Positions 27,557 to 59,016 of a stretch of 64,000 bases of DNA are shown here, one piece after another. Made by a program: the position numbers and the translations under genes. Below the pieces are notes generated by a model. That model had not been told where the DNA came from and ran no database searches. It saw nothing but the letters and a program-made list of their open reading frames with translations. The stretch covers positions 1-64,000 of the forward strand of contig PLNT01000028.1 in NCBI GenBank assembly GCA_003141895.1, given 5' to 3'. Numbering within the stretch: position 1 is the stretch's first letter; the number at the start of each line of letters is the position of its first letter. This DNA is from Bacteroidales bacterium (GTDB lineage: Bacteria > Bacteroidota > Bacteroidia > Bacteroidales > VadinHA17).

Positions 27557-27558
27557 AA

Positions 27559-27565
27559 CTCCTTT
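27559..27565 (-). promoter_or_regulatory. Shine-Dalgarno site that fixes the gldJ start
   Basis: AAAGGAG lies 2 nt before ATG 27556 on the minus strand. Most genes in this window lack a clear Shine-Dalgarno sequence, so it is informative for the start choice, although the spacing is short. Confidence 0.5.
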
Positions 27566-27638
27566 AGTTTTATGGCTTTTAAGAATACTCAAATATAACA
27601 AAATATTGTTGAACGATCTTTTTACTCACCAAATATAA

Positions 27639-28607
27639 CTACATTTTAGGAAAATTTATTGTTTTGATTGTATTTCTTTTTTCAACATTATTCAAACCGA
27701 AAGCTAGTCCTGTTTCGTGAAGAAGTGAGAACGGCAGAAATTTATTTCCGGATATTGCGTTAAAACGATAATTGTAATAAACTGATATTCTCCCGGCAGT
27801 CAAAGAAAATCCTGTCTGGATGTTCAGATTTCGTGAATTATCTTGCATTATTATTGCATTGACAGACAGATATCTGCTAGCCAAGGCGGCACCTGCCCCA
27901 TATACAAGATAACTCCTTTGTAGTTCCAAATATGTTAGTGGCTGAATTTTTAGATTCTGCGATTCATTAAGAAAAAAATCGCCTGATAAATGAACAAGAA
28001 CTTTTCTTTTTAATCTTTCGTTAGAGTTGCCTGTTGTGGATAAGTCTGGTTCAGCCAGATGACTAATGGAAAATCCTCCTGAAAACTTACCTGAAATGAA
28101 AAGGAACCCGGCACCTACATCAAATACCGTCCTGCCTGATAAGGCAAGAACCTCAGAGGAAGGAACAGTTGCGCCACCTAGAGGGTCAATCTGGTCAGGC
28201 AAAATGGCATTGTCAAAGTTAAACCCCCTGTGATAGAGTGAGGCCGAAAGTCCTGCATTAATAAACAGATCCTTCCCTGCCTGTAGAAAATATGCGTATG
28301 ACAAACCTCCCCTGAAATCATTAATAATACCTCCCAGATAATCATCAGCCAGATATATACCTGCACCGCCATGTAATATTTGAAAATATGAATCGTACGA
28401 AAAGTAGACTGAATGGAGATTATAGCCATTGCCAGGGAAAAAATTCAGGTACGACAGCCTTAGTTCACCATCACCTCCGCTCCCCACAAGTGATGGGTTA
28501 TTAATCATCATCATCTGATATCCTGGTCCCGGATCAGGTTCCTGTCCGAAACAATAGATCTGCAAAAAGCAGCTGAATATGAATATTATGATTAATTCCC
28601 TCAACAT
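27639..28607 (-). CDS. PorP/SprF family T9SS outer-membrane protein
   Basis: The 322-residue protein starts with a signal peptide (MLRELIIIFIFSCFLQ..., cleavage after about 22). It continues with MMMINNPSLVGSGGDGELRLSYLNFFP, the PorP/SprF opening motif where the N-terminal strand enters a beta-barrel. Alternating amphipathic strands run to the C-terminus, with GGLSYAYFL, LFINAGLSASLYHRG and SVYYNYRFNAIS as further signatures. Family members are outer-membrane components of T9SS; SprF-type members serve particular cargoes such as SprB, so a dedicated role for a nearby adhesin is possible. ATG 28607 is preferred over an upstream TTG (28628). Divergent from porU with a 114-bp gap. Confidence 0.88.
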   Translation of the reverse strand: MLRELIIIFIFSCFLQIYCFGQEPDPGPGYQMMMINNPSLVGSGGDGELRLSYLNFFPGNGYNLHSVYFSYDSYFQILHGGAGIYLADDYLGGIINDFRGGLSYAYFLQAGKDLFINAGLSASLYHRGFNFDNAILPDQIDPLGGATVPSSEVLALSGRTVFDVGAGFLFISGKFSGGFSISHLAEPDLSTTGNSNERLKRKVLVHLSGDFFLNESQNLKIQPLTYLELQRSYLVYGAGAALASRYLSVNAIIMQDNSRNLNIQTGFSLTAGRISVYYNYRFNAISGNKFLPFSLLHETGLAFGLNNVEKRNTIKTINFPKM

Positions 28608-28705
28608 ATAAAAATACTGCAATATCAACGTAATGAACTCGTTATTATTATGTTAAATTAAATAACAAAAAAACTAAATAAACTGGTATTCAAATTGCAC
28701 ATTTC

Positions 28706-28713
28706 TATCTTTG
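28706..28713 (+). promoter_or_regulatory. TAnnTTTG -7 box for porU
   Basis: TATCTTTG matches the Bacteroidota -7 consensus and ends 8 nt before the porU ATG (28722), implying a very short or absent leader. A TTG lies at 28695, closer than the usual -33 spacing. Confidence 0.4.
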
Positions 28714-28721
28714 TCGGTATA

Positions 28722-31700
28722 ATGAGAAGAATATTTCAAATAGTGCCTGTAGTTATGTTGCTTTTATCGGTAAATCTTTATGCGCAGAATATCAAAGATA
28801 GTTATTCTTCTTCTTCTAAACTTTCCCATGGATTATGGTTCCGTATTGCATTAACTAAAGATGGTGTATACAGAATAGATTTCTCAAAATTGAGGCAACT
28901 CGGATTACCGGACCCATCCCATCCTAGGATTTTTGGTAACAATTCCGGACAGATGTCATACTATAACGATAACTCACAACCAGACGATTTGAATGAAATT
29001 TCAATTCAAATTAATACCGGGAGTGATGGGATTTTCAATGAAGGAGATTATCTGCTTTTTTATGGGAAAGGTACCCGAAGATTGAAATTCAACCAGAGTA
29101 ATAAAAAATATGATTATCTGCCCCACAATTATTCAGATACGGCATTCTATTTTATAACATCGGATCCATCGCCTGGTAAAGAAATCATTGCATCTATTGA
29201 ACCCACGCAGCCAAATAATTATAGTTCATCCGAATCAGATGTTCTATTTGTCCATGATCAGGATGATGAAAACCTTATCAAATCAGGAAGAGAATGGTTT
29301 CAACCTGTTTCATCTATTCATATTGACCCTGGTTTTGCTGATCTTATCGCATCAGAAAACATAAATTATGACATAAGAGTAGCCGGAAGGGCCTCTGTTC
29401 CAACAATTTTCAGAATTTATGAAGGAAGCTCCCTTAAAAAAAGTATTGAGGTTCAGGGAGTTAATCTTTCCGATGACAACGGTATATATGCCCAGATAAG
29501 TGATTCTTCAGGTTCGATGCAAACCACATCCCAAAATCCAACTTACGATATCAATTTCTTTAACAATGGCGAAACCGGAGCTCATGGTTGGCTTGACCGG
29601 ATAACATTGCAGGGCAGAAGATTAAATTCATTTTCAGGATCGGAAGTGCAATATACCGATTCGAAATCAGCGGAAACAGGTAGAATAACGACATTTTCAA
29701 TCAGATCAACCAACACAGATCCGGTAATATGGGATGTAACGGACCCATTCAATTCTAAACTTATTCAATCTGTAAGAAACGGAGAGAATATTACATTTAA
29801 ACTCGCCACCGATACATTAAAAACATTTATCGCTTTTTCCCCTTCCGGTGCGCTTGCTCCTGTTATTAAACCTGCTGCAATTCCGAATCAGGATCTGCAT
29901 GGGTCTGAATCTGCAGATATGATTATTATCACTCACCCCCTCTTCAAAAGTTATGCAGAAAAACTGGCCGCAATTCATCTGAAAAATGATGGATTGATTA
30001 CTCAGATAGTCACTCCTGAACAAATATATAATGAGTTTTCCGGTGGGATACCGGATATAGTCGCTATCAGAAATTTTTTACGAATGAAGTACTTAAAGCA
30101 GAAAGAAAGTGACCATCCTTTAAAATATCTTCTCCTCTTTGGCGACGGTTCTTATGAGAATAAAACACCTCCACCAGATAATCCGGATTATATACCTACT
30201 TATCAGTCACAGAATTCAAATGATAAAGTATCTTCTTTTACATCTGATGACTTTTATGGTCTTTTAGAGGATGGAGAAGGGGAAGCGGATGGCACACTTG
30301 ATATTGGAATTGGTCGTCTGCCGGTATCGGATACAACCCAGGCCGGAATAGTTCTTTCAAAAATTAAAAAATATCTGGATCCGGCAAATTTGGGCGACTG
30401 GAAAAATGTTATATGCCTGACGGCGGATGACGAAGATGCTAATACCCACATGATTGATGCTGAAGGTCTTGCATCAATCCTGAAAGATAGCGTCCCTGAT
30501 TATAATATTGATAAAATTTACCTCGATGCTTTCAAACAAACAACGACAGTAAATGGACAGTCTTATCCTGAGGTAAATAAGGCTATTAATAATCGCATAA
30601 ATGCCGGATGCCTTATTTTTAATTATACGGGGCATGGTAATGAGAACGGTTTGGCTGCCGAAAGTGTTGTCACAACGAACGATATCAATTCATGGGATAA
30701 CGGCGGAAAACTGCCGCTTTTTATTACAGCAACTTGCGAATTCAGTCGTTTCGATGATATTGTGCTTAACGTGGCTACCAGGCAAATTACAGGTAACCAG
30801 TCTGGCGGTGAAAAGGTTCTTCTGAATAAGAATGGAGGAGGTATAGCACTTATGTCTACCACCAGGGTTGTCTATTCCGCCCCGAATTACGATCTTAACA
30901 GGAACATTTTCAGCGTCGCATTTAATCATGATGCATATGGTAATACAATGGCCTTTGGAGACATAATTAAAATGGCAAAAAATAACTCCGGAACCGGACC
31001 AAACAAACGGAATTTTACTCTGCTCGGTGATCCGGCTTTAAAACTTGCTTATCCTTATCATGGTAAAGTAGTAACTGATTCAATAAATAATGTGTCAGTA
31101 TACAATAATATTGACAGTCTGAAAGCACTTTCCTTTATTACAATCGCCGGGCATGTAGAAAACCTGACGGGTGATACATTACGCAATTTCAATGGTATAA
31201 TTTCTCCCATTGTTTTTGATAAACCAAATAAAATTAAAACTCTAGCTAATGATGGGGGACAAAACATGATTTTTGATCAAATGAACAACATTCTGTACAG
31301 TGGCAAGACGATGGCAAAGAATGGATCCTTCAGATTCTCTTTTATTGTGCCGCGGGATATTAATTACACATTCGGTTCAGGCAAAATCAGTTATTATGCA
31401 AGTAACAACAAAGAAGATATGAATGGTAGTTTTAGCAACATAACCGTTGGAGGGTTTTCAAAGACTATGATTTCCGATACTTTGGGCCCTGATATTAAGT
31501 TATACATGAATGATACTCTTTTCAGGAATGGAGGTCTGACAGACAGTAATCCCAGACTCCTTGCGGTAATAAACGATCCGGATGGTATAAATACTTCAGG
31601 ATCAGGTATTGGCCACGATTTAACTGGTTTTCTTGATAATAACTCCGATAATTCCTTTGTTCTGAATAATTATTTTAAAAATGACTTCAATAATTTCATG

Positions 31701-32132
31701 AAGGGGCGAATTAACTATGATATGTCCGGATTGACTGAAGGTTTTCATTATCTTACAGTTAAAGCCTGGGATAATTTTAATAACTCATCTGAAAAAACGA
31801 TTTCATTTCGGGTTGCAGAACAAAAATTCATGCTCAGAAACCTGATTAATTATCCGAATCCGTTTACTAACGAAACAAATATCATTCTGGAACACAACAG
31901 ACCTGATAACGAGTTAGATATAATTATAAAAATTTATAATATTGATGGGAAAATGATCAGGATTCTTCAAACAAAAATTATTCCCAATGGTTATACATTG
32001 CCACCTGTAACCTGGAATGGAAATGATGAGGACGGACAGAAAGCAGGAAAAGGATTATTTCCTTATACCATAACAATTACTACTGCAAATGGCGAGATGG
32101 CTGTGGCTTCAGGACGAATGATCATTTTGTGA
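28722..32132 (+). CDS. porU: Type IX secretion system sortase PorU
   Basis: The 1,136-residue exported protease belongs to family C25 (gingipain-like). PorU cuts the C-terminal signal from T9SS cargo and links the cargo to anionic lipopolysaccharide at the outer surface. A signal peptide (1-22, ending LYAQ) is followed by an N-terminal beta region beginning SHGLWFRIALTKDGVYRID. The C25 domain (about 390-790) has the catalytic His638 in YTGHGNENG and Cys672 in TATCEFSRFDD. The C-terminal domain (about 1,050-1,136) begins NYPNPFTNETNI and resembles a T9SS signal that PorU keeps uncleaved. ATG 28722 is chosen over a TTG at 28695 because it gives a clean signal peptide. porV follows 54 nt downstream. 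Confidence 0.95.
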   Translation: MRRIFQIVPVVMLLLSVNLYAQNIKDSYSSSSKLSHGLWFRIALTKDGVYRIDFSKLRQLGLPDPSHPRIFGNNSGQMSYYNDNSQPDDLNEISIQINTGSDGIFNEGDYLLFYGKGTRRLKFNQSNKKYDYLPHNYSDTAFYFITSDPSPGKEIIASIEPTQPNNYSSSESDVLFVHDQDDENLIKSGREWFQPVSSIHIDPGFADLIASENINYDIRVAGRASVPTIFRIYEGSSLKKSIEVQGVNLSDDNGIYAQISDSSGSMQTTSQNPTYDINFFNNGETGAHGWLDRITLQGRRLNSFSGSEVQYTDSKSAETGRITTFSIRSTNTDPVIWDVTDPFNSKLIQSVRNGENITFKLATDTLKTFIAFSPSGALAPVIKPAAIPNQDLHGSESADMIIITHPLFKSYAEKLAAIHLKNDGLITQIVTPEQIYNEFSGGIPDIVAIRNFLRMKYLKQKESDHPLKYLLLFGDGSYENKTPPPDNPDYIPTYQSQNSNDKVSSFTSDDFYGLLEDGEGEADGTLDIGIGRLPVSDTTQAGIVLSKIKKYLDPANLGDWKNVICLTADDEDANTHMIDAEGLASILKDSVPDYNIDKIYLDAFKQTTTVNGQSYPEVNKAINNRINAGCLIFNYTGHGNENGLAAESVVTTNDINSWDNGGKLPLFITATCEFSRFDDIVLNVATRQITGNQSGGEKVLLNKNGGGIALMSTTRVVYSAPNYDLNRNIFSVAFNHDAYGNTMAFGDIIKMAKNNSGTGPNKRNFTLLGDPALKLAYPYHGKVVTDSINNVSVYNNIDSLKALSFITIAGHVENLTGDTLRNFNGIISPIVFDKPNKIKTLANDGGQNMIFDQMNNILYSGKTMAKNGSFRFSFIVPRDINYTFGSGKISYYASNNKEDMNGSFSNITVGGFSKTMISDTLGPDIKLYMNDTLFRNGGLTDSNPRLLAVINDPDGINTSGSGIGHDLTGFLDNNSDNSFVLNNYFKNDFNNFMKGRINYDMSGLTEGFHYLTVKAWDNFNNSSEKTISFRVAEQKFMLRNLINYPNPFTNETNIILEHNRPDNELDIIIKIYNIDGKMIRILQTKIIPNGYTLPPVTWNGNDEDGQKAGKGLFPYTITITTANGEMAVASGRMIIL

Positions 32133-32165
32133 GATATACACAATATTAAGGATGAAAAATAGTTT

Positions 32166-32173
32166 TATATTTG
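32166..32173 (+). promoter_or_regulatory. TAnnTTTG -7 box for porV
   Basis: TATATTTG lies 13 nt before the porV ATG at 32187, within the short gap after porU. No TTG occurs at the usual -33 spacing, so porV may use this site in addition to read-through from porU. Confidence 0.35.
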
Positions 32174-32186
32174 TAAAATACCTAGA

Positions 32187-33380
32187 ATGATAAACCTGAA
32201 TATGAAGATAAAGAGAATTGCAATTGTCCTGATTATCATCGCTCTCTCCGGTAAAACATTACTTTTTTCTCAACAGAGTTCCGGAGGACTTAATGCAATT
32301 CAGACAGTTGTTCCGTTTCTTACCATTGCTCCCGACTCAAGAGCCGGTGCCATGGGTGATGCGGGAGTTGCTACCTCTCCGGATATTTATAGTATGCACT
32401 GGAATCCATCTAAATTTGCTTTTATAGATGGAAATGGCGGAATAGGAATCTCTTATTCTCCATGGCTCAGAAATCTGGTACCTGATATTAATATAGCATA
32501 CCTTACAGGATATAAGAGAATTGATACTAAACAGGTAATTGCAGCAAGCCTGCTTTATTCATCTCTTGGAGATGTTCCTTTCACCGATGAATTTGGTAAT
32601 CTTGAACGTACATTCAGCCCTAACGAATTTGCTATTGATGCAGCTTATGCAAGACTGTTCAGCGAAAATATATCCGGAAGTATAGCTTTCAGATTTATAT
32701 ATTCAAATTTGACCGGAGGATCATATTCGGGTGGAGTTGCTACAAGACCCGGAATTTCCTTTGCATCAGATATTTCAGGATATTACCAGAAGAAGATTAC
32801 GCTTTTCAGCAAGGACGCACAGCTGGGAGTGGGACTTAATTTTTCAAACATCGGAACAAAAATGAGTTATTCGCAATCTCAGACTTCTGATTTCATTCCG
32901 ATGAATATGCGTATTGGTGCTTCTGCAACTATTAATCTTGATACCTACAATAAAATTTCTCTTACTCTCGATCTTAATAAACTGCTCGTTCCCACTCCTC
33001 CAATCTACAGCAGTGCAAAACCCGATAGCATTATTAAAGGAAAAGACCCTAATGTTTCGGTTCCTGTTGCAATTTTTCAATCATTTTTTGATGCTCCCGG
33101 CGGATTTAAGGAAGAAATGCATGAAATTACCTATTCTACAGGTATTGAGTACTGGTATAATAATCAGTTTGCTCTCAGGGGAGGCTATTTTTATGAAGAT
33201 CCTTCAAAAGGAAACCGGAAATACTTTACAGCTGGCGCCGGATTCAGGCTCAAAGCCTTCACACTTGATTTCTCCTATCTTATGCCTCTCGCACAAAATC
33301 ATCCTCTTGCTCATACTCTCAGGTTTTCCCTCGCTTTTGATTTCAATGCACTAAGAAACGCAAACAGGTCAAAAGCATGA
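32187..33380 (+). CDS. porV: Type IX secretion system outer-membrane protein PorV
   Basis: The 397-residue outer-membrane beta-barrel protein of the FadL-like PorV family carries T9SS cargo from the translocon to PorU. A signal peptide (about 1-28) is followed by the family opening AIQTVVPFLTIAPDSRAGAMGDAGVATSPDIYSMHWNPSK. Later features are RGGYFYEDPSKGNRKYFTAGAGFRLKAFTLDFSYLMP and a final aromatic strand. An in-frame ATG at 32202 (MKIKRIAIV) would give a shorter leader. It is flanked by porU and overlaps ispF by 4 nt (ATGA), so porU-porV-ispF may be one transcript. Confidence 0.95.
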   Translation: MINLNMKIKRIAIVLIIIALSGKTLLFSQQSSGGLNAIQTVVPFLTIAPDSRAGAMGDAGVATSPDIYSMHWNPSKFAFIDGNGGIGISYSPWLRNLVPDINIAYLTGYKRIDTKQVIAASLLYSSLGDVPFTDEFGNLERTFSPNEFAIDAAYARLFSENISGSIAFRFIYSNLTGGSYSGGVATRPGISFASDISGYYQKKITLFSKDAQLGVGLNFSNIGTKMSYSQSQTSDFIPMNMRIGASATINLDTYNKISLTLDLNKLLVPTPPIYSSAKPDSIIKGKDPNVSVPVAIFQSFFDAPGGFKEEMHEITYSTGIEYWYNNQFALRGGYFYEDPSKGNRKYFTAGAGFRLKAFTLDFSYLMPLAQNHPLAHTLRFSLAFDFNALRNANRSKA

Positions 33381-48130: not shown

Positions 48131-49510
48131 ATGGCAAGACTGAATATCACATTACCTGCAATGGGAGAAGGCGTAATAGAAGCAACTATCAATAAATGGC
48201 TTGTTTCAGAAGGTTCCCAGGTTAAGGAAGATGATCCGCTTGTAGAAGTAGCTACTGATAAAGTGGATTCTGAAGTCCCGGCTCCGGTAGCAGGTACCCT
48301 TGTATCAATAAACGTAAAAGAAGGCTCGATCGCTAAAATAGGTGAGATCCTGGCCGTAATTGAAAATGATAATACTCCAACAAAAGAAGATTTGAAAAAG
48401 GTTGATAAGGAGGTTGAAAGAGTCCGTGAAACTATAAAAGCTTCAAAACAGGAAAAAGCTGAGACAGAGAACTTGTCGCATGACATGAAAAGCCGGACAC
48501 CTTCCGGTAAATTCATTTCTCCATTGGTCAGGAGTATTGCTTCAAGTGAAGGAATAAGTTATGACGACCTTGATAAAATTACCGGAACAGGAATGGATGG
48601 CCGGATTACAAAGGATGATATCTTAAAAATACTTGATGAGAGGAATACCGGAAAAGAATCAGCGGAGTCTGTAAAAACGGCTGCAACCAGGGAAATTCAT
48701 GATTCAGAAAGGGCACCTAAAGAGTTAAAACGGGTTGCTGGAGCCGAAGCAGCTCCTGCAGTGGAAAAAGGCGAAAAGAAGGAAAATCTGGTAACAAAAT
48801 CTGCAGGTGATGAAGTTATTCCTATGGACCGAATCCGCAAAATAATTGCAGAGCATATGGTTATGTCAAAAAGAACATCTCCACATGTCACATCTTTTAT
48901 TGATGCTGATGTTACTGGTCTTGTAAACTGGAGAAACGCTAACAAGGATCGTTTTCTGACGTCAGAGGGTCAAAAACTTACACTCACTCCCATTTTTATT
49001 GACGCAGTAGCAAAAGCTCTGCATGAATTTCCAATGGTCAATATATCAGTTGATGGAGAAAATATAATCAAAAAGAAGAATATTAATATCGGGATGGCCA
49101 CTGCACTCCCCGATGGCAACCTGATTGTGCCGGTCATAAAAAATGCTAACGAAAAGAGCCTTACTGGTCTGGCAAAAACAGTCAACGATCTGGCTGAAAG
49201 GGCAAGGATCAATAAATTAAAACCCGATGAAATTACAGGCGGTACATTTACAATTACGAATTTTGGAAGTTATAATAATCTTGCAGGAACACCTATAATA
49301 AATCAGCCGCAGGCTGCAATTCTGGGTACCGGTGTTGTAAGAAAAACTCCCGTGGTTATTGAAACAAAAGAAGGGGATATGATTGGCATAAGGCAAATAA
49401 TGATTCTGTCGTTAAGTTACGACCACAGAGTTATTGATGGGGCCCTCGCTGGAAAATTCCTTCATAAAGTAAAAGAAATCCTTGAGAATTATACGCCAGA
49501 CTATATTTGA
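48131..49510 (+). CDS. 2-oxo acid dehydrogenase complex E2 acyltransferase
   Basis: The 459-residue E2 has a lipoyl domain (1-78; lipoylated Lys44 in VATDKVDSEVP) and an E3-binding domain (about 125-170; SPLVRSIASSEGISYDDLDKI, GRITKDDIL). The C-terminal catalytic domain (about 230-459) has SYDHRVIDGALAG, with His432 and Asp436. Whether it serves pyruvate, 2-oxoglutarate or branched-chain 2-oxo acids is not certain; the layout is most like branched-chain or pyruvate types in this phylum. No E1 or E3 gene is adjacent. A strong terminator follows. Confidence 0.93.
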   Translation: MARLNITLPAMGEGVIEATINKWLVSEGSQVKEDDPLVEVATDKVDSEVPAPVAGTLVSINVKEGSIAKIGEILAVIENDNTPTKEDLKKVDKEVERVRETIKASKQEKAETENLSHDMKSRTPSGKFISPLVRSIASSEGISYDDLDKITGTGMDGRITKDDILKILDERNTGKESAESVKTAATREIHDSERAPKELKRVAGAEAAPAVEKGEKKENLVTKSAGDEVIPMDRIRKIIAEHMVMSKRTSPHVTSFIDADVTGLVNWRNANKDRFLTSEGQKLTLTPIFIDAVAKALHEFPMVNISVDGENIIKKKNINIGMATALPDGNLIVPVIKNANEKSLTGLAKTVNDLAERARINKLKPDEITGGTFTITNFGSYNNLAGTPIINQPQAAILGTGVVRKTPVVIETKEGDMIGIRQIMILSLSYDHRVIDGALAGKFLHKVKEILENYTPDYI

Positions 49511-49580
49511 TTTGCGGTTCAGATTAGTTATTGGGTCTGAATTTCATCAGCAAATAATCGTGGTTTGAAAGAAAAAGGTA

Positions 49581-49609
49581 AAAAGGACTACTTCAAATAG
49601 TCCTTTTTT
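49581..49609 (+). terminator. Terminator after the E2 gene
   Basis: An AAAAGGACTA/TAGTCCTTTT stem is followed by further T. It separates the E2 gene from the TPR-PD40 cluster. Confidence 0.9.
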
Positions 49610-49745: not shown

Positions 49746-52598
49746 ATGATGAAAAGATTAGTTATCATAACGTGGCTGCTGGCTACATTTATCAATCCTG
49801 AGTTACGCTCCCAATCGAAAGAAGAGAGCAGGCAAAATTTTTTCGAAGCTGAGAGTTGGATCTTATTTGAATCGTATCAGGATGCTCTGCCATTATATCT
49901 GCAACTACTGAAAAGATACCCTAAAAATTCAAATTACAAATACAGGATTGGTCAATGTTATATTAATATACCGGGTGAGAAAATTAAAGCCGTCAGTTAT
50001 CTTGAGGACGCTATTGCAGATATTGACCCGAAATACAGAGAAGGAAAATTCAGTGAATCCGGAGCTCCATATGACGCTCTCTACTATCTTGCAAATGCAT
50101 ACCGTATAAATAATCAGATAGATAAAGCACTTAAAACATATGAACTGTTCAGATTAAATCTGAATCCTGCGGTCTATGATACAACAGTTGTGAATCTCCA
50201 GATACAGAGTTGCCGGAATGCCAAGGAGCTCATGAGGATGCCTCTCTATCTCAAAGTGAAAAACCTCGGGAATGTAATAAACAGCAGTAATAATGATTAC
50301 AATCCTGTGGTTTCAGATAATGAGGATATGATTGTATTTTCAAGAAGCCAGGCATTTTATGATGCCATTCTGTACTCGACAAAAGTCAATGGGGTATGGA
50401 CTGAACCTCTGAATATGAATGAGCTGTTAAAAGTAGACCGTGATCTTTTTCCTACTTCAATCTCGAAGGACGGAAAGGATCTTTATTTATACAGTTCAGC
50501 TGATTACGATGGTATAATATATACTTCCCGGTTTGAGAATGGGAAATGGTCTCCTATCGTAAAGCTAAATGATAACATAAATACCAAATACTGGGAGTCA
50601 CATGCAACTATTTCTCACGATAACAAAAAACTATATTTCACCAGTAACAGGAAAGGCACGTATGGCGGACTAGATATATATGTATCAACTCGAGACAGCA
50701 CAGGGGATTGGGGCCCGGCAGTTAATCTTGGACCCACTATAAACACCCCTTATAATGAAGAATCACCTTTTCTCAGTCAGGATGACAAAACATTGTTTTT
50801 TAGTTCAAGAGGCCACTTTAACATGGGTGGCTATGATATCTTCTACTCAACATTGCTCGATAACGGAGAATGGTCCGTACCACTGAATGTTGGTTTCCCC
50901 CTCAATACAACAGACGATGATGTATTCTTCAGACCGTTAAATCAGGGCTACGAAGGGTATGTTTCGAAAGAACTTCCCGGGGGGTTTGGTAAACAGGATA
51001 TATATCGTGTTGAGATTTTTTCAAATGATCATCCCAGAAAATTCTTCGTAAGAGGGATGGTAAAGGTTGCCGATTTAATAAATAATATGAATGATAGCGT
51101 TAAGGTAAGCGCTATGAATATAAAGAATCCTGATCAGACAATGATTGTGTATTCAAATCCTCAGACAGGTCAATATGAATTTCAGCTTCCTCAGGGGGAT
51201 TATCAAATCATATATCAAGGAGATGGAGGTCAAACAGTTGTTAAAAATCTTAATCTGCCTCTGCTGAATCCCTCCGACAGCTTTATTCTTCCGGGAACTG
51301 TTTTGCCAAGAACTGATTTTACGGCTGACTTAAATGTAGAATCCAATAAAAGCATATCTGTTACAGGGGGCGATTCGATAATATTTCCAATGAAGATTGA
51401 ACCGAAATCGTTCCTTACTGTTGAGAATTGGGTAGGTGATTCATTGGTGTCGGTAAAACACTACACAATCCTCGATTCAGTCTTTGTTTATAAGATGGCA
51501 CCGGCGAACGGGAATAACAGAGTTGTATTTAAACTTACCGACAGATTTAATAACCAAACTAAAACGGAAGTCCAGGTTACCCGCGAAAGAAATCTTACAG
51601 ATCAACCGGTTAAACGACCGGAATATGACAGGATCATTTCTCAGAAACAAATTGCCATCCTTGCCGAGTTGCTTAAAAGCCGGGCCAAGGATAAGCTTCT
51701 TGACCTTGTCACAAATGCAAATATCAAGGATAAAGAATTCGGAAAAGTCGATGACTATATTTCATTCCTGGAAGAAGAGGCTGTTAAAAAAGGCATTAAC
51801 GCTGAGGACGTTGACAGACTGGCACTTACTGTTGCAGCTATGGATAATATTCTCACCCAGGCTGCAGTCGATTTAATGGCAAAATATTCTGATGGTGAAC
51901 TTAAAAAGCTTCTTTCAGAACTTGATATCTATGCATCCAATTTAAAAACATGGACTGATTTACAGCAATATATTTCAGAAAAAACCGGAGGAAGGATAAG
52001 TCCGCAGGACCTGAACAGGATCGCCGCAGCAATCTTAAACGGGATTGACCCGGCTATAGATATTCTGAGATCTAAAATTCTGTCCTTCAGCGAAAACTCA
52101 TCAATTGGATCGCTCATCAAACAAGCTGTATCATCTGCTGATAACAGTGACTCTAAAACAACCGGGAAATGGCTGCAGTCATTTTATAATGAATCTCTCA
52201 AGCTAGAACTTACACAGGATCAGCTTGTTGAACTACTTGTAAGGATGAGCTCTTTGCCTGATACTAAAACAGACCAATATCTTAATGATCTGATCGGACA
52301 ATCTGATGAACAATTCCTTTCAACATTGAAATCTGTTGATCTGAAGAAAGCAAAAATCAAAACACCCAATGACCTGATTAAATATCTTTTAACAAATAAA
52401 GAAAAGTATCCTCAGGAGTTTGTTTTTGGAAGTATAGCTGACCTTATAGTTTCAAAGAACATTTCCCCGGAAGATTTTAAATCAAAAGTACCTTCCGGAA
52501 ATAAAAATGAACTGTGGATATTATGGCTACTGATACTTGCCGGAATAATTAGCTTATTCCTTATTCTATGGAGAAGAAGAAACAAAAACAAAAAATAA
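49746..52598 (+). CDS. Exported TPR and WD40-like (PD40) protein with C-terminal membrane helix (paralog 1)
   Basis: This 950-residue protein has a signal peptide (1-22). TPR-like helices (about 25-165; FFEAESWILFESYQDALPLY, RIGQCYINIPGEK) are followed by PD40 repeats (about 180-425; signature ESHATISHDNKKLYFTSNRK, then GGYDIFYST). A carboxypeptidase-regulatory-like strand segment lies at about 440-520. A long region that is mainly helical (about 630-915) ends in one membrane span (about 922-943) and a basic tail, RRRNKNKK. A signal peptide plus this tail predicts an inner-membrane anchor with the propeller in the periplasm, unlike its relatives. It shares the TPR-PD40 core with the next three genes. 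Related to PorE-type T9SS proteins; precise role unknown. Confidence 0.85.
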   Translation: MMKRLVIITWLLATFINPELRSQSKEESRQNFFEAESWILFESYQDALPLYLQLLKRYPKNSNYKYRIGQCYINIPGEKIKAVSYLEDAIADIDPKYREGKFSESGAPYDALYYLANAYRINNQIDKALKTYELFRLNLNPAVYDTTVVNLQIQSCRNAKELMRMPLYLKVKNLGNVINSSNNDYNPVVSDNEDMIVFSRSQAFYDAILYSTKVNGVWTEPLNMNELLKVDRDLFPTSISKDGKDLYLYSSADYDGIIYTSRFENGKWSPIVKLNDNINTKYWESHATISHDNKKLYFTSNRKGTYGGLDIYVSTRDSTGDWGPAVNLGPTINTPYNEESPFLSQDDKTLFFSSRGHFNMGGYDIFYSTLLDNGEWSVPLNVGFPLNTTDDDVFFRPLNQGYEGYVSKELPGGFGKQDIYRVEIFSNDHPRKFFVRGMVKVADLINNMNDSVKVSAMNIKNPDQTMIVYSNPQTGQYEFQLPQGDYQIIYQGDGGQTVVKNLNLPLLNPSDSFILPGTVLPRTDFTADLNVESNKSISVTGGDSIIFPMKIEPKSFLTVENWVGDSLVSVKHYTILDSVFVYKMAPANGNNRVVFKLTDRFNNQTKTEVQVTRERNLTDQPVKRPEYDRIISQKQIAILAELLKSRAKDKLLDLVTNANIKDKEFGKVDDYISFLEEEAVKKGINAEDVDRLALTVAAMDNILTQAAVDLMAKYSDGELKKLLSELDIYASNLKTWTDLQQYISEKTGGRISPQDLNRIAAAILNGIDPAIDILRSKILSFSENSSIGSLIKQAVSSADNSDSKTTGKWLQSFYNESLKLELTQDQLVELLVRMSSLPDTKTDQYLNDLIGQSDEQFLSTLKSVDLKKAKIKTPNDLIKYLLTNKEKYPQEFVFGSIADLIVSKNISPEDFKSKVPSGNKNELWILWLLILAGIISLFLILWRRRNKNKK

Positions 52599-52603
52599 AT
52601 GAA

Positions 52604-52634
52604 TGAAAATGACCGGCCGCGCCGGTCATTTTCA
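52604..52634 (+). terminator. Long hairpin after paralog 1
   Basis: A perfect 14-bp stem (TGAAAATGACCGGC/GCCGGTCATTTTCA) with a 3-nt loop lies 5 nt after the stop. No long T run follows, but a stem this strong should stop or pause transcription or protect the mRNA end. Confidence 0.65.
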
Positions 52635-52675
52635 TAAAATAATACAGGTTTAACATTCTTTTGCCGATTTTTTAA

Positions 52676-52683
52676 TAAATTTG
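52676..52683 (+). promoter_or_regulatory. TAnnTTTG -7 box for paralog 2
   Basis: TAAATTTG lies 19 nt before the ATG at 52703 and just after the hairpin closing paralog 1. The -33 element is weak. Confidence 0.4.
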
Positions 52684-52702
52684 ACTAACAAAATCTCAGG
52701 CT

Positions 52703-53977
52703 ATGAGCAAAAGAGCAATGTGTCTGTTTGTTACATTTGTTTTCATCATTCCGCTACGTGCACAGGTAAATAAAGAGCTTCAGGACGCTTTTCTTGAAGC
52801 TGAATATTTTATGATGAATGGTGATTATTCTGATGCTCTCACATATTATCTACCTTTATATGAGAAACTGCCTGATAATTCGAACCTTGCATACCGAATA
52901 GGAGTATGCTATCTCAATATTCCTTCAAAAAAGAATCTATCGGTAGATTTTCTCAGTATTGCATCAAAGAATATGTCAGCCAAACGTAAAGAAGGAAGCA
53001 TTAGTCAGGTAGCAGCTCCATATGATGCATTATTTGAGCTTGGAAAAGCTTATCGCATTAATTTCAAGTTCGATCAGGCAAAAGAGACTTTCACTAAATA
53101 TCTTGCTACACTTCTGCCTGACGATCAGGAGAATGTGGAGTTCGTAAAACATGAAATTGAGGTTTGCGATAAGGCTAAAGATTTTATAGCCAAACCTGTA
53201 TCATATACTGAAGAAAACATAGGAGAGCTGTTTAATGATGAAAAATCTCAATTTAATCCCTTGATATCAGCAGATGACAAATCTTTTGCTTATATGGTTT
53301 CTCTCAAATTCTATGATGCCGTTATGTTTTCCAAACTTATAAATGGAAAATGGTCGGCTCCCATTAATATAACCCCTGACCTCCAGACCGATGGAGATTT
53401 TTATATATCATGTCTTTCTGCCGATGGAAAATTACTATTTCTTTCCAAAGAAGATAACGATAACAGCGATATTTATGTAAGCTCTTATGTCGGAGAAACC
53501 TGGACAAAGATTGTCAGGCTAAACAAAAATATTAATACAAAATACTGGGAATCACACGGATTTATTTCTGAAGACGGGAATCAGTTGGTTTTCGCGTCAG
53601 ACAGACCAGGCGGATTTGGCGGACTTGATCTGTATATTTCCCAAAAAGTAAATGGCGACTGGGGTCCGCCAGTCAATCTCGGCCCGGAAATTAATACACA
53701 ATTCAATGAGGACAGACCATTTCTGATTAATAATGGAAAAACTATTTTTTTCAGTTCCCAGGGACATGAAACAATAGGAGGTTATGACATATTCAGATCT
53801 GATCTTCAATCAAACGGTTTGTGGAGTAAGCCAAAAAACCTTGGATACCCAATAAATACACCAGATGATGATGTTTTCTTTATGCCTGTGGGTGATGGCA
53901 AATCCGGCTATTATTCAAGATATAAAGAAACGGGCGGATATGGGAAAGAAGATATATACAAAATAACTTTTAAATAA
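52703..53977 (+). CDS. Exported TPR and PD40 protein without C-terminal module (paralog 2)
   Basis: The 424-residue protein has a signal peptide (1-21, ending LRAQ), TPR-like helices (about 24-165; AFLEAEYFMMNGDYSDALTY, RIGVCYLNIPSKK) and a PD40 propeller (about 180-424; ESHGFISEDGNQLVFASDRP, GGLDLYIS, GGYDIFRSD). It stops where its relatives continue into further domains, so it is the minimal form of this family rather than a truncation with a visible scar. Its last residues (GGYGKEDIYKITFK) match the propeller end of paralog 1 (GGFGKQDIYRVE). It is probably periplasmic. A 49-nt gap with its own promoter separates it from paralog 3. Confidence 0.85.
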   Translation: MSKRAMCLFVTFVFIIPLRAQVNKELQDAFLEAEYFMMNGDYSDALTYYLPLYEKLPDNSNLAYRIGVCYLNIPSKKNLSVDFLSIASKNMSAKRKEGSISQVAAPYDALFELGKAYRINFKFDQAKETFTKYLATLLPDDQENVEFVKHEIEVCDKAKDFIAKPVSYTEENIGELFNDEKSQFNPLISADDKSFAYMVSLKFYDAVMFSKLINGKWSAPINITPDLQTDGDFYISCLSADGKLLFLSKEDNDNSDIYVSSYVGETWTKIVRLNKNINTKYWESHGFISEDGNQLVFASDRPGGFGGLDLYISQKVNGDWGPPVNLGPEINTQFNEDRPFLINNGKTIFFSSQGHETIGGYDIFRSDLQSNGLWSKPKNLGYPINTPDDDVFFMPVGDGKSGYYSRYKETGGYGKEDIYKITFK

Positions 53978-53989
53978 AAATTAACCTGA

Positions 53990-54021
53990 TTGCTAAATCC
54001 TTTATAAATACACTATATTTG
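53990..54021 (+). promoter_or_regulatory. Bacteroidota-type promoter of paralog 3, near-leaderless
   Basis: TTG at 53990-53992, a 21-nt spacer and TATATTTG at 54014-54021 form a textbook -33/-7 pair. The ATG at 54027 begins only 5 nt after the -7 box, so the transcript would start at or within a few bases of the start codon. Confidence 0.6.
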
Positions 54022-54026
54022 TTTTA

Positions 54027-55979
54027 ATGGATAACTTCAGAGTAAAAATCGTAAGTGGCCTCCTTCAGCTAATAGCTGTGGTACTAATTCCTTTTACGGT
54101 TTCTGCACAATCTTCAAGCGAGATGAAGAAGATATTTGAGAAAGCCGAGTCATATTATCTGTACGAAGAATATGAGCTGGCAAATCAATTATATCTTATT
54201 ATCGATAGCACAGGTAACGGTAACATTCAATATAAAATAGGCAATTGTTATGTTAATATTCCCGGGGAAAAAGAAAAATCAATTCCATATCTCGAGAGTG
54301 CTATCAAATCTGCATCTTATGAGTCAAAAACCGAATCTTTTAAGGAAAAGAGGGCACCACTTGATTCATACTTCTCGCTATCCAAAGCATACCTTATTAA
54401 TAATCAGTTAGATAAAGCCCTAAATACACTTCAGACATTTAATAAGCTTGCCAGGGAAACATCTTCCAAGGGAGGCATGAAGAATCTTGAGTACATTGAA
54501 CAGCAGATACAGGCATGTAAGAACGCTATTGATTATAAAAATAATCCTGTTATCTTCAGTAAAAAGACAATGGGAAGTGACTTCAGTCAGGGCTCGATAA
54601 ATGATAATCCGGCTGTTAGCTTCGATGGTAACACAATAGTATATACCGAACGCAGAGGTGTAGTTAATGCCATATTCTATTCAAAAAAGGAAAGAGGCAA
54701 ATGGCAGACTCCAATTGAAATAACAGCTGAATTAAATGCCGGTGAAGATTGCTCATCCAGTTCACTTAACAATGATGGAACTGAGCTTTTCCTGTACAAA
54801 ACGGATAACTACGATGGGGCTATATATTCCTCGAATTTCGTTGATGGAGCATGGATGCCGATTAAGAAATTAAATAAGAATATAAATACAAAATTTTATG
54901 AATCACACGCCTCTATTTCTGCAGATTCGAAAAGACTTTATTTTTCGAGCAACAGAGACGGTGGTCAGGGTAACCTCGACATTTATGTTTCTGAAAAAGA
55001 TGAATCTGGTGATTGGGGTCCGGCTGTAAACCTTGGCGCAGCTATCAATACTCCATTTAATGAAGATACACCTTTCATAACCCAGAATGATTCAGTTCTT
55101 TATTTTTCTTCTGAAGGACATAGTTCAATGGGCGGATTTGATAATTTCAAGAGTCAGAAAATAGGATCAGTCTGGAAAACGCCAACAAATTTAGGTTATC
55201 CCATTAATACAACTGACGATGACAAATTCTTTCAACCTGTAAATAATGGGAAAAATGCCTATTATTCGATGACAACAGATTATAAAAAGAAAGAAATATT
55301 TTATCTCGGTTTGGGTAATACAGACGTAAATCAATCTTTTGAAATAAAAGGTAAATTCAGTCTCAAAGATACAATAGTGACGTTTGATAAAAATTACTCC
55401 ATTAATCTTATAAATAAAACATCAGGAGATACTCTCGATGTGGGGTTCCCGAATAAATTAACAGGACTCTATAATTTTATAGTTGCTCCAGGGGAATTCA
55501 GAATCTATTATAAAGGGTATGGCTATAAAACCAAGATAATTGATACTGCCATTTTACAGAATAACCCTAATCTCTTTATAAATATAGATGTGTCTCTTGA
55601 AAGAGATACAACTGTAAAAAAAATTATTGCTGAGCCTGCTGTTGTTTATGATAAAATAAACCTCTCTTTAATACCTACCATCGCTGCAGCTGATACAAGT
55701 ACACTGATAAGAAACCTCAACGTTAGTGATGTGAGTGACGTTAATGTAAAGGACTCGGACGTTCTCTATTATACGGTACAGGTGATGGCTCTGCACAAAC
55801 CTGTTGATGTAACATACTTCAAATATATATCTGACATGAAAGTATTGTATAACGATGCAGATAAGTTTTACAGATATACCACAGGTAGGTTTCCGACCAG
55901 GGAAGAAGCTTATTCATTAAGATTGGAGTTGATAAGGAAAGGTTATCCTGAGGTCTTTATCAAGAAAGTATCAAAATAA
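54027..55979 (+). CDS. Exported TPR and PD40 protein with C-terminal SPOR domain (paralog 3)
   Basis: The 650-residue protein has a signal peptide (about 1-27, ending VSAQ), TPR-like helices (about 30-165) and a PD40 propeller (about 180-425; ESHASISADSKRLYFSSNRD, GNLDIYVSEK). A regulatory beta-sandwich-like segment (about 437-525) and a linker follow. The C-terminal SPOR domain (about 578-650) has YYTVQVMALHKP, YRYTTGRFPTREEAYSLR and GYPEVFIKK. SPOR domains bind peptidoglycan strands stripped of stem peptides, typically at division sites, so this protein should contact the cell wall. Its stop overlaps the start of paralog 4 by 1 nt (TAATG), so the two are coupled. Confidence 0.85.
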   Translation: MDNFRVKIVSGLLQLIAVVLIPFTVSAQSSSEMKKIFEKAESYYLYEEYELANQLYLIIDSTGNGNIQYKIGNCYVNIPGEKEKSIPYLESAIKSASYESKTESFKEKRAPLDSYFSLSKAYLINNQLDKALNTLQTFNKLARETSSKGGMKNLEYIEQQIQACKNAIDYKNNPVIFSKKTMGSDFSQGSINDNPAVSFDGNTIVYTERRGVVNAIFYSKKERGKWQTPIEITAELNAGEDCSSSSLNNDGTELFLYKTDNYDGAIYSSNFVDGAWMPIKKLNKNINTKFYESHASISADSKRLYFSSNRDGGQGNLDIYVSEKDESGDWGPAVNLGAAINTPFNEDTPFITQNDSVLYFSSEGHSSMGGFDNFKSQKIGSVWKTPTNLGYPINTTDDDKFFQPVNNGKNAYYSMTTDYKKKEIFYLGLGNTDVNQSFEIKGKFSLKDTIVTFDKNYSINLINKTSGDTLDVGFPNKLTGLYNFIVAPGEFRIYYKGYGYKTKIIDTAILQNNPNLFINIDVSLERDTTVKKIIAEPAVVYDKINLSLIPTIAAADTSTLIRNLNVSDVSDVNVKDSDVLYYTVQVMALHKPVDVTYFKYISDMKVLYNDADKFYRYTTGRFPTREEAYSLRLELIRKGYPEVFIKKVSK

Positions 55980-58489
55980 TGAAAACTGCACTCAGAAGGA
56001 CAGTTATTCTTTCTCTGTTGTTTATCTTGTACCTGCCTTCTTTCTCTCAAGCACTTTCCAAAAGAGGATTCATCAAAGCCGTTCAGGCAGCTGATATATA
56101 TTATTACTACGATCAGAATTACGAAAAAGCTGCAGGTCAGTATGAATCTCTTTTAAAGATTTATCCTGAGAACTCTAACCTTTCGGCAAAACTTGGCATA
56201 TGCTATTTGAATCTCGATGGAAAAAACTCTGAAGCGCTGAGGCTTCTTTCAAAGGCGATTTTGAATGTAGTAGGTACTGACAAGGAATATATTGAATTTG
56301 GTGAAAAAGCCCCGCTTGATACATACCTATACCTTGCAATTGCATATCATCAGAACGACAGTCTTCAAAAAGCAATTACACTTTATTCTGATGCCAGGAA
56401 ACGGTTAAGCGGAACAAAAATCTTCAGGGATGAGTACATTGATAATCAGATAAAAGATTGCAGGTATGCGATTGAGATGGAGAAAAAACCTGTAAAAGTA
56501 TCCTCAGAATTATTCGCAGGATGGCTAAGTGATTATCCAGGAGCATGCAATCCGGTTCTGTCAAAAAATGATTCTGTATTTATTTTTACCCAGAAAGAAA
56601 ACGGCAAAACTCATATTTTCTGCTCTTACAAAACAGGAACATGGAAAAAGCCGGTTGATATCTCCAGGCAACTTGGAGGATCTGACAGATTATATTCGAA
56701 CTCAATAACAGGAGACGGAAAGTTTTTGGTCATTTATCTGGAAGAAAGCGGAAATGGAAATCTATTTTATTCACAGAGAAAAGATTCTACCTGGACTAAG
56801 ATCAAAAGTTTCCCAAAACCAGTTAATTCCATTTATTGGCAGTCCTTTGGTTTCATAACACCTGATGGTAAATCTATATACTTTTCGAGTAACAGACCTG
56901 GCGGTTATGGTGAGCTTGATATCTGGTTTTCTGAAAAAAATGATGCAGGCAAATGGACTGAACCAGTCAATTGCGGTAATATCATTAATACTCCATATAA
57001 TGAAGATACACCTTTCTTCGATCAGGAAAAGGAAATCTTACTTTTCAGTTCAATCGGTCACATAAGCATGGGAGGATATGATGTATTCAGATCTCAGAAG
57101 AAAAATGGAACATGGTCTAATCCTGTGGGGTTGCCTTATTCACTAAATAATACCACCGGCAACAGCTTCTTTATTCAGAATAACCAAAAATATAGCTATA
57201 TAACCAGCCTTTATGACGAAAAATCACGCTCACGGAATATATATACGCTCACTACTGAAATACCTGTTGACAGAGTTATAAAATTAAAAGGAGATATTGA
57301 ACTTCAGGATGGAATAACGGCAGATCCCAAACAAACAAAAATACTGCTTGTTGACCAAAAAGAAACAAAGAGAATTGATTTACTCGATTCAGCTATATAT
57401 TCATTTGATATTAAACCGGGTGAATATCAGCTATATATAAGCCATACCGGGTATAAAACCGATTCAATTAATCTCAGTATCCCGTTAAATTTCGGAGGCA
57501 ACTATGTTTTTGTCAGTTCCTCCCTTGTGCCAGATAAAGTATTTGACGGCGAGTTTCTGACATTAAACAATGTCCTTTTTGACTTTAATAGTTTTAAACT
57601 GAACGATCAGGCTCTACCAGTTCTCGAGATGTTAAGGTCCGTTCTCATCAGTTATCCTGAATTAAAAGTGGAGGTTGCAGGATATACCGATGCAAAAGGA
57701 ACCAAAGAGTATAATGAAATGCTCGCTGATAAAAGAGCTCAGGCAGTAATTGAATACCTTTCATTGAAGGGAGTATCGACTGAAAGGTTTATTAAAAAAT
57801 CATATGGAAAATCCGATTATGTAGCTTTAAACTACAACCGCGATGGTTCAGATAATCCGGAAGGGAGAAAGTATAACCGGCGTGTTACATTTGGGATAGT
57901 TGATCCTAAAACAGGTATTATAATCCGTCAGGAAACTTACACTCCCGAGCAACTCCGACAGCCTTTTTCATTAAGATATAGTATTGTTTTACTAAAATCA
58001 GCCAGGAAACTATTACCAGATTACTTTGCTTCATTGACAAGTGATAAACTATTCTTTATAAGAACGATTAAAGCCGATACACTTTCTATGTACGTTCTTG
58101 GAGTATTCTACAATAAGACAGATGCCTTGAAATATCTTGGATATGCCCGCGATAATGGATTTAAAAGTGCCTATATATTGAACCAGTATGACCTGGAAAA
58201 TGAATCAAATGCAATATTAAACCCAGGTGGAAAAAACTCTTTTCTAAGTCATCTCGATCAAAAGAAATATACAATTCAACTGGGAGCTACAAGAAATCCG
58301 ATAAATGCCGATAAAATATTCAGCGGACTACATAGCGTTTCTGAGGTAAAAGCCAACGATGGATATTATAAATATTACTATGGCGAATATCCGACTCTTA
58401 CAGATGCTAAGAATGCACTTTTAATAGTCCACAAAGCAGGATATGATGATGCTTATATCAGAAATCTTTACGAATTGGTGACCCAATAG
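55979..58489 (+). CDS. PorE-like exported TPR, PD40, OmpA protein with two SPOR-like segments (paralog 4)
   Basis: The 836-residue protein has a signal peptide (about 1-23), TPR-like helices (about 25-165) and a PD40 propeller (about 175-425; QSFGFITPDGKSIYFSSNRP). A regulatory-like beta domain (about 433-520) precedes an OmpA C-terminal peptidoglycan-binding domain (about 527-640; NNVLFDFNSFKLND, AGYTDAKGTKEYNEMLADKR, NRRVTFGIV). Two SPOR-like segments follow (about 660-735 and 762-836; YTIQLGATRNP, YYYGEYPTLTDAKNAL, GYDDAYIRNL). TPR, propeller, CRD and OmpA in this order is the architecture of PorE, which links T9SS to peptidoglycan. The added SPOR-like tail is unusual. It is coupled to paralog 3. 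Confidence 0.88.
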   Translation: MKTALRRTVILSLLFILYLPSFSQALSKRGFIKAVQAADIYYYYDQNYEKAAGQYESLLKIYPENSNLSAKLGICYLNLDGKNSEALRLLSKAILNVVGTDKEYIEFGEKAPLDTYLYLAIAYHQNDSLQKAITLYSDARKRLSGTKIFRDEYIDNQIKDCRYAIEMEKKPVKVSSELFAGWLSDYPGACNPVLSKNDSVFIFTQKENGKTHIFCSYKTGTWKKPVDISRQLGGSDRLYSNSITGDGKFLVIYLEESGNGNLFYSQRKDSTWTKIKSFPKPVNSIYWQSFGFITPDGKSIYFSSNRPGGYGELDIWFSEKNDAGKWTEPVNCGNIINTPYNEDTPFFDQEKEILLFSSIGHISMGGYDVFRSQKKNGTWSNPVGLPYSLNNTTGNSFFIQNNQKYSYITSLYDEKSRSRNIYTLTTEIPVDRVIKLKGDIELQDGITADPKQTKILLVDQKETKRIDLLDSAIYSFDIKPGEYQLYISHTGYKTDSINLSIPLNFGGNYVFVSSSLVPDKVFDGEFLTLNNVLFDFNSFKLNDQALPVLEMLRSVLISYPELKVEVAGYTDAKGTKEYNEMLADKRAQAVIEYLSLKGVSTERFIKKSYGKSDYVALNYNRDGSDNPEGRKYNRRVTFGIVDPKTGIIIRQETYTPEQLRQPFSLRYSIVLLKSARKLLPDYFASLTSDKLFFIRTIKADTLSMYVLGVFYNKTDALKYLGYARDNGFKSAYILNQYDLENESNAILNPGGKNSFLSHLDQKKYTIQLGATRNPINADKIFSGLHSVSEVKANDGYYKYYYGEYPTLTDAKNALLIVHKAGYDDAYIRNLYELVTQ

Positions 58490-58497
58490 GAAATGCC

Positions 58498-59016
58498 GTG
58501 AAGTATAAAAACATCAAACTCAGGGCGTTGGAGCCTGAAGACCTGGAGTTGCTCTATGAGTGGGAGAACAATCAGAGTTACTGGTCAATAAGCAATACCA
58601 TTACTCCTTTTTCAAGATATAATCTCAAACAGTACATTGAAAATTCTCATAAAAATATCTTTGAAACTGGACAACTCAGGCTCATGATTGACCATATTGA
58701 TGATAAAAAGACCATCGGGACTATCGATATATTTGAATTCGATCCCTTTCATAAAAGAGCAGGAATTGGTATACTAATTGCTGACGGATCCTACAGGAAA
58801 AAAGGGTTTGCTACGATGGCACTCACTTGTATTATAAATTATTGTTTTAAAACTCTGAAGTTGCACCAGCTATACTGCAACATAATTTCAAATAACGTTG
58901 AAAGCATTGATCTGTTCATGAAGCATGGATTTGTGCAAACCGGAACCAAAAAAGACTGGATCAAAACAGGTAATGGCTACCTCGATGAGTTTATATTTCA
59001 GCTGGTTAACGAATAG
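58498..59016 (+). CDS. GNAT family N-acetyltransferase
   Basis: The 172-residue RimJ/RimL-like acetyltransferase starts IKLRALEPEDLELLYEWENNQ, with the acetyl-CoA loop region GIGILIADGSYRKKGFATMAL and the closing SNNVESIDLFMKHGFVQTGTKKDW. The family transfers acetyl groups to protein N-termini, polyamines or small amines; the substrate is unknown. A GTG start at 58498 is required, since the nearby ATG at 58493 is out of frame. It starts 8 nt after paralog 4 and overlaps the convergent rlmN end by 11 nt. Confidence 0.88.
   Translation: MKYKNIKLRALEPEDLELLYEWENNQSYWSISNTITPFSRYNLKQYIENSHKNIFETGQLRLMIDHIDDKKTIGTIDIFEFDPFHKRAGIGILIADGSYRKKGFATMALTCIINYCFKTLKLHQLYCNIISNNVESIDLFMKHGFVQTGTKKDWIKTGNGYLDEFIFQLVNE

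Follow-up and report, generated by a model that had tools for sequence, protein, structure and literature searches.

An array of four tandem genes of one protein family is located in a 64,000-nucleotide stretch (hereafter the window; positions 1 to 64,000 of the forward strand) of contig PLNT01000028.1 of a Bacteroidales bacterium (assembly GCA_003141895.1; GTDB lineage Bacteroidales, VadinHA17). All four open reading frames (ORFs) are on the forward strand, and their translations, here called P1 (950 amino acids (aa), 49746..52598), P2 (424 aa, 52703..53977), P3 (650 aa, 54027..55979) and P4 (836 aa, 55979..58489), each open with a hydrophobic, signal-like stretch; the ORFs of P3 and P4 have one base in common. 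The PD40 domain was recognised above the Pfam cut-off in all four proteins; TPR matches stayed below the cut-off save one in P4, and P3 had none. Motifs of the ESH/QSF and FSSNR..G..DI types can be read in the translations. The heads of the four proteins share 30-43% pairwise identity over 414-539 common columns (E <=2e-63), a similarity that is, as judged from the alignments, far beyond chance. Behind this head the proteins differ: P1 continues with beta domains, a helical stalk and a C-terminal transmembrane (TM) helix with a basic tail (ORF, Pfam and structural model), P2 is a bare TPR-propeller protein (ORF, Pfam and head tree), P3 adds one SPOR-like domain (ORF and local profile), and P4 carries a beta domain, an OmpA domain and two SPOR domains (ORF, Pfam and structural model). 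An earlier note, made from the DNA letters, had claimed four paralogs with a signal-like N-terminus, a TPR start and a motif-bearing propeller, as well as four different C-terminal ends, and both claims were confirmed; its suggestion that the set arose by duplication is supported by the mutual identity of the heads and by the trees described below.

The structural model of P1 (mean pLDDT 77, pTM 0.45) consists of TPR-like helices (aa 18-163, 49797..50234, where all Pfam TPR matches are below the cut-off), the PD40 propeller (aa 168-425, 50247..51020, recognised by both Pfam and the model), two beta domains, an all-helical stalk (aa 626-912, 51621..52481) and a C-terminal helix (aa 920-949, 52503..52592), in which a hydrophobic segment is followed by RRRNKNKK. 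The signal-like N-terminus in combination with the C-terminal TM helix and basic tail predicts a periplasmic body and a cytoplasmic tail. In the whole-chain Foldseek list of P1, TolB chains appear among other propellers from rank 8 onward, and no separate fold match was singled out for the stalk. P2 stops where the propeller ends and is thus a head only, according to its translation and the Pfam match; its neighbours in the tree include clades of other genera that bear an OmpA tail.

The SPOR-like domain of P3 (aa 582-645, 55770..55961) was found by a local profile; the Pfam SPOR model (PF05036) misses the P3 of the window and matches 9 of 32 members of the P3 set at E 0.01. The local profile, seeded with P3, links the end of P3 with both SPOR segments of P4; this profile and the one for OmpA were iterated on these same proteins. 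The model of P4 (pLDDT 80, pTM 0.57) has a head like that of P1, followed by the OmpA domain (aa 529-640, 57563..57898; Pfam extent 533-618) and two SPOR-like folds. The first of these (aa 667-733, 57977..58177), supported by the local profile, has a beta-alpha-beta-beta-alpha-beta order in the model; the second (aa 764-827, 58268..58459), also seen by the profile, matches PF05036 over residues 761-827 with 35.5 bits against a gathering score of 21. Within the OmpA domain, seen by Pfam, the local profile and the model, P4 has the triad D571, N579 and R586, which shows no variation across 26 sequences. The spacing of this triad, 8 and 7 residues, is that of D576, N584 and R591 in PorE, the residues described as contacting a peptidoglycan fragment (PMC7192894). 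A Foldseek search with P4 gave the C-terminal domain of PorE first, with OmpA/Pal domains and TolB after it. No lipobox was found in the translations of P1-P4.

The array is widely conserved. A match to P1 at E 1e-10 or better was obtained in 117 of 117 genomes of the family, at a threshold that also admits other heads. Twenty family regions hold 2-6 heads each, some being cut by contig ends, and a P1-type gene comes first in 19 of them and is absent in L074. Within the order, P3 was matched at E 1e-25 in 187 of 247 genomes, and 40 order-level loci were hand-picked among the matches listed: 20 of the stronger matches, for the most part from genomes in which several of them cluster on a single contig, and 20 of the weaker, part of which lie on contigs below 10 kb. 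A TM-tailed member was present in 18 of the 20 stronger loci, from nine family codes besides the window's own, and in none of the 20 weaker loci, which comprised 11 single genes, 7 pairs and 2 sets of three heads. No TM tail occurs in the 16 stretches fetched from outside the order; each contains a single head, save L210, L211 and L212 with two apiece, one of those in L212 being cut.

For a census of tails, duplicates were removed, leaving 108 arrays with at least two heads, and the 27 that touch the ends of their stretches were set aside. Among the 81 complete arrays, exactly one TM tail was found in 69, none in 12, and two or more in none, the TM label never being given to members that carry OmpA or SPOR. 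The hydropathy of the tails is bimodal, with only 3 values between 1.25 and 1.75. The TM gene is the first of the array in 63 of the 69 cases and the second in 6, and arrays with one such member are spread over ten of the order's families. The other members are more variable: OmpA-only proteins number from 0 to 2, P4 is absent in 15 arrays of the TM-b-S1 type, and several complete arrays (TM-O-b, 6; TM-O-O-b, 5) have no SPOR member. The tail types are maintained, above all the single inner-membrane tail (69 of 81), and the scattered, non-conserved occurrence that the earlier note had named as speaking against its proposal was not observed; order and position are conserved across the arrays.

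The residues that follow the TM helix in the 69 members have a median of 6 K/R and 1 D/E, and the spacer preceding it varies from 132 to 1022 residues. In some genera the stalk is shortened or absent with the TM helix retained, and it is deleted in L075, L079 and L080. At the other extreme, L219 (8535-13001) and L183 (2618-7099) each encode a protein with a TM tail that is about 1490 aa long and has a spacer of more than 1000 residues. A sortase-type sorting signal was considered for P1 and rejected, as no conserved motif precedes the TM helix in 95 TM members; even the most frequent residue at any one position, a leucine where the TM helix begins, occurs in only 36 of the 95.

In a tree of 92 heads, the TM tail needs 2 changes, the bare tail 6 and the OmpA tail 8, and the family's nine rows with SPOR only fall into a single starred clade. 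In a 49-row tree of chosen rows, 12 TM rows are placed on one branch (SH-aLRT 88). A single origin of the TM members is compatible with the 92-row tree and as yet not proven. In that tree a starred branch sets the PorE of the same genome, which served as the outgroup, and the PorE-like protein of L214 apart from the remaining 90 rows; both are long-branched, a situation for which the program gives a warning about joining. With FastTree and a midpoint root, these two stand beside some non-TM heads. A derivation of the P4 head from a TM-type member, seen in the FastTree result and not with the mixture model, was dropped.

The genes of the arrays are closely packed, with a median same-strand gap of 53 bases over 197 junctions. 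In the window, a perfect 15-pair hairpin (52603..52635) lies just past the stop codon of P1, and a terminator-like hairpin that fits both strands (49580..49608) precedes it; both were found by a hairpin search. Stems of at least 9 pairs follow the TM gene in 54 of 79 junctions of 30-400 bases, compared with 35.5 expected from dinucleotide shuffles, whereas the other junctions have them in 27 of 96 cases, compared with 29.3 expected. The hairpin after P1 and the enrichment of stems after TM genes argue against a simple, single-dose operon, and the P1 gene may give a separate or more abundant transcript.

The array also occupies a syntenic locus. In the window it is preceded by a gene of the 2-oxoacid dehydrogenase E2 component (48131..49510, forward strand), from which the terminator-like hairpin separates P1, and followed by a gene of a GNAT acetyltransferase (58498..59016, forward strand); according to Pfam and locus comparison, the former is a common upstream neighbour and the latter a near-constant one. 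In the stretches around the 69 complete TM arrays, which differ in length, GNAT was found in 67, RecR in 49 and E2 in 43, and each of the 69 has one or more of these three. When 40 order-level and family loci were clustered, 35 shared GNAT, 31 a glycosyltransferase and 24 E2; other recurring neighbours are an HSDR_N protein, DNA polymerase III delta, a rhomboid protein, an AlgH-like protein, a phosphorylase-family protein, an aminotransferase, a polysaccharide export protein, a decarboxylase and a TPR protein. The paired version of the array occupies the same site in L240, L245 and L247, and in one genome of another order (L197) a single TPR-PD40 gene adjoins E2 and RecR. In two loci a GNAT gene is located between TPR-PD40 genes (L228, 9564-10073; L245, 3267-3767).

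The GNAT protein was considered as a part of the module and rejected. A GNAT match is present in 18 of 24 genomes, selected chiefly because P3 has no match in them, and none of the 17 loci fetched from these 18 contains a TPR-PD40 gene, with RecR still close to GNAT in 12 of them. In L279 (7556-10016), RecR, E2 and GNAT are adjacent without an array, the matches of E2 and GNAT being separated by 33 bases, and this locus represents an empty site. Thus, the RecR/GNAT block persists without the array, which was gained or lost inside it; GNAT is not tied to the array and probably stands outside the module.

The earlier note had also taken the last protein for PorE, the peptidoglycan anchor of the type IX secretion system (T9SS). 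This was not borne out: against the NCBIfam model of PorE, known from Porphyromonas gingivalis (NF052230, cut-off 600 bits), P1-P4 score 125, 145, 115 and 151 bits, and a separate PorE of the same genome, encoded on contig C35, reaches 686 bits. P4 alone resembles PorE in having TPR, propeller, CRD (the beta domain of the model) and OmpA in one chain, while P1-P3 are without OmpA, and it keeps the Asp/Asn/Arg triad that is reported to hold the stem of meso-diaminopimelic acid (meso-DAP) (PMC7192894). The array differs in adding SPOR domains and TM-tailed, SPOR-only and bare sisters, in its scores far below the cut-off, in its tandem arrangement not adjoining a PorP-family gene, and in coexisting with a separate PorE. 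An N-terminal lipidation signal of the PorE type, lacking in the four array proteins, is also lacking in the PorE of this genome. Another relative is the CHU_0125 family of Cytophaga hutchinsonii (NF053607, cut-off 620 bits), which gives the best NCBIfam scores for P1, P2 and P4 and is level with PorE for P3 (184, 150, 115 and 174 bits for P1-P4). CHU_0125 is described as having TPR, PD40 and OmpA domains, and its deletion resulted in sixfold more vesicles; the scores of 115-184 bits are far from 620, however, and no TM or SPOR domain is named for it in the excerpts of that study (PMC5891637).

With the Tol-Pal system the array proteins share, according to the models, a TolB-like propeller fold and a Pal-like OmpA domain, and the TPR is comparable to that of CpoB (PMC12204202). 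Unlike in Tol-Pal, these domains are fused within one family, the best score against the TolB model is 31.5 bits (P2) of the 343 required, the ten recurring neighbour clusters scanned contain no TolA or motor, and no array protein has a convincing lipobox. In this genome, no protein scores above 343 bits against the TolB model, the best of 9 weak matches having 53 bits.

Taken together, the best reading of the array is that one family, duplicated in place, forms a tether from the inner membrane to the cell wall and perhaps to the outer membrane, as a counterpart of Tol-Pal. We put the proposal that a single protein family supplies a modular tether in the periplasm and does Tol-Pal-type work a little short of an even chance. 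The common head, TPR plus TolB-like propeller, would be exported and might pair with the heads of its sisters and/or with a partner at the outer membrane. P1 would be fixed in the inner membrane by its C-terminal helix, with a helical stalk of variable length, and P3 and P4 would sit on peptidoglycan, the SPOR domains on denuded, typically septal, strands and the OmpA domain on meso-DAP stems. P2, as a free head, could exchange with the others or cap them. In this way the array may hold the outer envelope to the wall and the inner membrane or draw it towards them, above all during division, in a genome whose TolB matches are all below the cut-off. In favour of the tether are the single TM tail of most complete arrays, the retention of the TM helix where the stalk is lost, the triad of P4 with its PorE spacing, the TolB chains among the Foldseek matches of both models, the absence of a TolB above the cut-off and the increase in vesicles on deletion of the relative CHU_0125. 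A bolder version, that copies of one TolB-like head constitute a whole trans-envelope machine, a replacement of Tol-Pal in Bacteroidota in which the stalk of P1 serves as an adjustable ruler or spring, seems to us unlikely.

Several observations weigh against the tether. In 60 of the 247 genomes of the order no P3 match was found at E 1e-25, and 12 of the 81 complete arrays are without a TM member: one of these (L146) is broken by masked bases, L074, from the same family as the window, is a genuine exception, eight come from the weaker order-level loci (pairs of the OmpA or OmpA-SPOR kind and longer sets without TM), and L228 and L229 come from the stronger ones. The arrays were found largely with P1-type queries, so that TM-bearing ones were favoured. 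In the Foldseek list of P1 the first place is not taken by TolB, whose TM-scores by target length are low (<=0.41), and the hairpin parts P1 from P2. A convincing lipobox is lacking: a loose pattern was matched in 7 of 178 proteins, five times inside the TPR region and twice doubtfully (L222 and L233). Finally, a Pfam scan of the ten recurring neighbour clusters, with one representative each and covering neighbours only, gave no motor-, TolA/TonB- or TolQRA-like protein, which leaves force transduction unsupported.

Among the alternatives, the array might be a T9SS accessory set. Its heads would then, in the manner of PorE, bind barrels of the PorP/SprF type or the ring of PorK/N, and would fix secretion complexes or adhesins to both the wall and the inner membrane; PorE is reported to bind PorP (PMC9143113). 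The window indeed encodes GldJ, a PorP-family protein, the sortase PorU and PorV (26051-33380), with porU and porV 16-21 kb upstream of the array. The array is neither PorE nor beside a PorP-family gene, and the linkage is loose: of 20 flank stretches, taken from 18 genomes, 7 contain PorU, four of the seven coming from the genus of the window and three from two other families, PorU/PorV also lying in the array flanks of these groups. Strong P3 homologues (E 1e-60) are rarer in genomes without PorU (3 of 24, the 24 counting G718 as PorU-less because no match is listed for it) than in those with it (75 of 223; Fisher p 0.038, kinship ignored), but the completeness of the three carriers without PorU is 80-92%, and PorU may have been missed there; 148 of the 223 PorU-bearing genomes have no strong P3 homologue. 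As PorU is present in 223 of 247 genomes of the order, its co-occurrence with the array says little, and the association with T9SS by this measure is weak.

The pairing with PorP-family proteins belongs to other genes of this genome. Three further PorE-like genes, on contigs C1, C20 and C31, adjoin PorP-family genes, an arrangement that resembles five operons of Flavobacterium johnsoniae in which, according to the excerpts of that work, a PorE homologue occurs with a type B substrate and an SprF-like shuttle (PMC12618676). These operons share with the array the presence of PorE-like proteins in several copies; however, they are paired with a shuttle barrel and a substrate, and the array as a rule is not. 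A survey with three query proteins over the fetched flanks of 120 array loci, duplicates included (118 hold at least two heads), revealed a single PorP-family match, in L236 (9414-10340), on the opposite strand just downstream of the TM gene. A 2375-aa ORF, which we guess may encode an adhesin, adjoins this PorP-family gene. PorP matches were also obtained in seven comparison loci: two of them supplied the queries, in four the match is to the PorP-family protein of the window itself, and only L198 is independent. The T9SS reading seems improbable; the separate PorE and these results speak against it, while the gene in L236 and the operons of F. johnsoniae agree with it.

A scaffold for division or wall remodelling, a somewhat fainter prospect, would have the SPOR tails at the septum, P1 tied to the divisome of the inner membrane, and the TPR and propeller domains recruiting wall enzymes in the manner of CpoB. 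SPOR domains are established binders of denuded glycan, and SPOR-like domains occur once in P3 and twice in P4, but the ten neighbour clusters scanned contain no division gene and the TM-O-b and TM-O-O-b arrays dispense with SPOR altogether; this alternative overlaps with the favoured tether. That the paralogues have separate duties and are neighbours merely by tandem duplication is very doubtful, for although members come and go, a hairpin follows P1 and the heads are only 30-43% identical, the TM member is kept in a single copy, every complete TM array lies near GNAT, E2 or RecR, same-strand gaps are short and the arrangement persists over ten families.

No description of such a tandem set was recognised among the matches listed from open-licence PMC papers, and the excerpts of a study of the BAM complex have nothing on proteins of this kind (PMC12611786). 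The closest proposal, in a paper of 2025, is that PorE alone acts as a compact Tol-Pal-like tether; in the excerpts of that paper a TolA/TonB-like partner of PorE is guessed at and none is named (PMC12204202). Compared with what these excerpts propose, the membrane-anchored and SPOR members of the array are new.

The array is found well beyond this genome and is not a local oddity. It touches on the wider question of how Bacteroidota hold and constrict the outer membrane without a recognisable Tol-Pal system. The locus offers candidate inner-membrane and SPOR partners for a tether of the PorE type, in one conserved cassette, and thereby makes this question testable.

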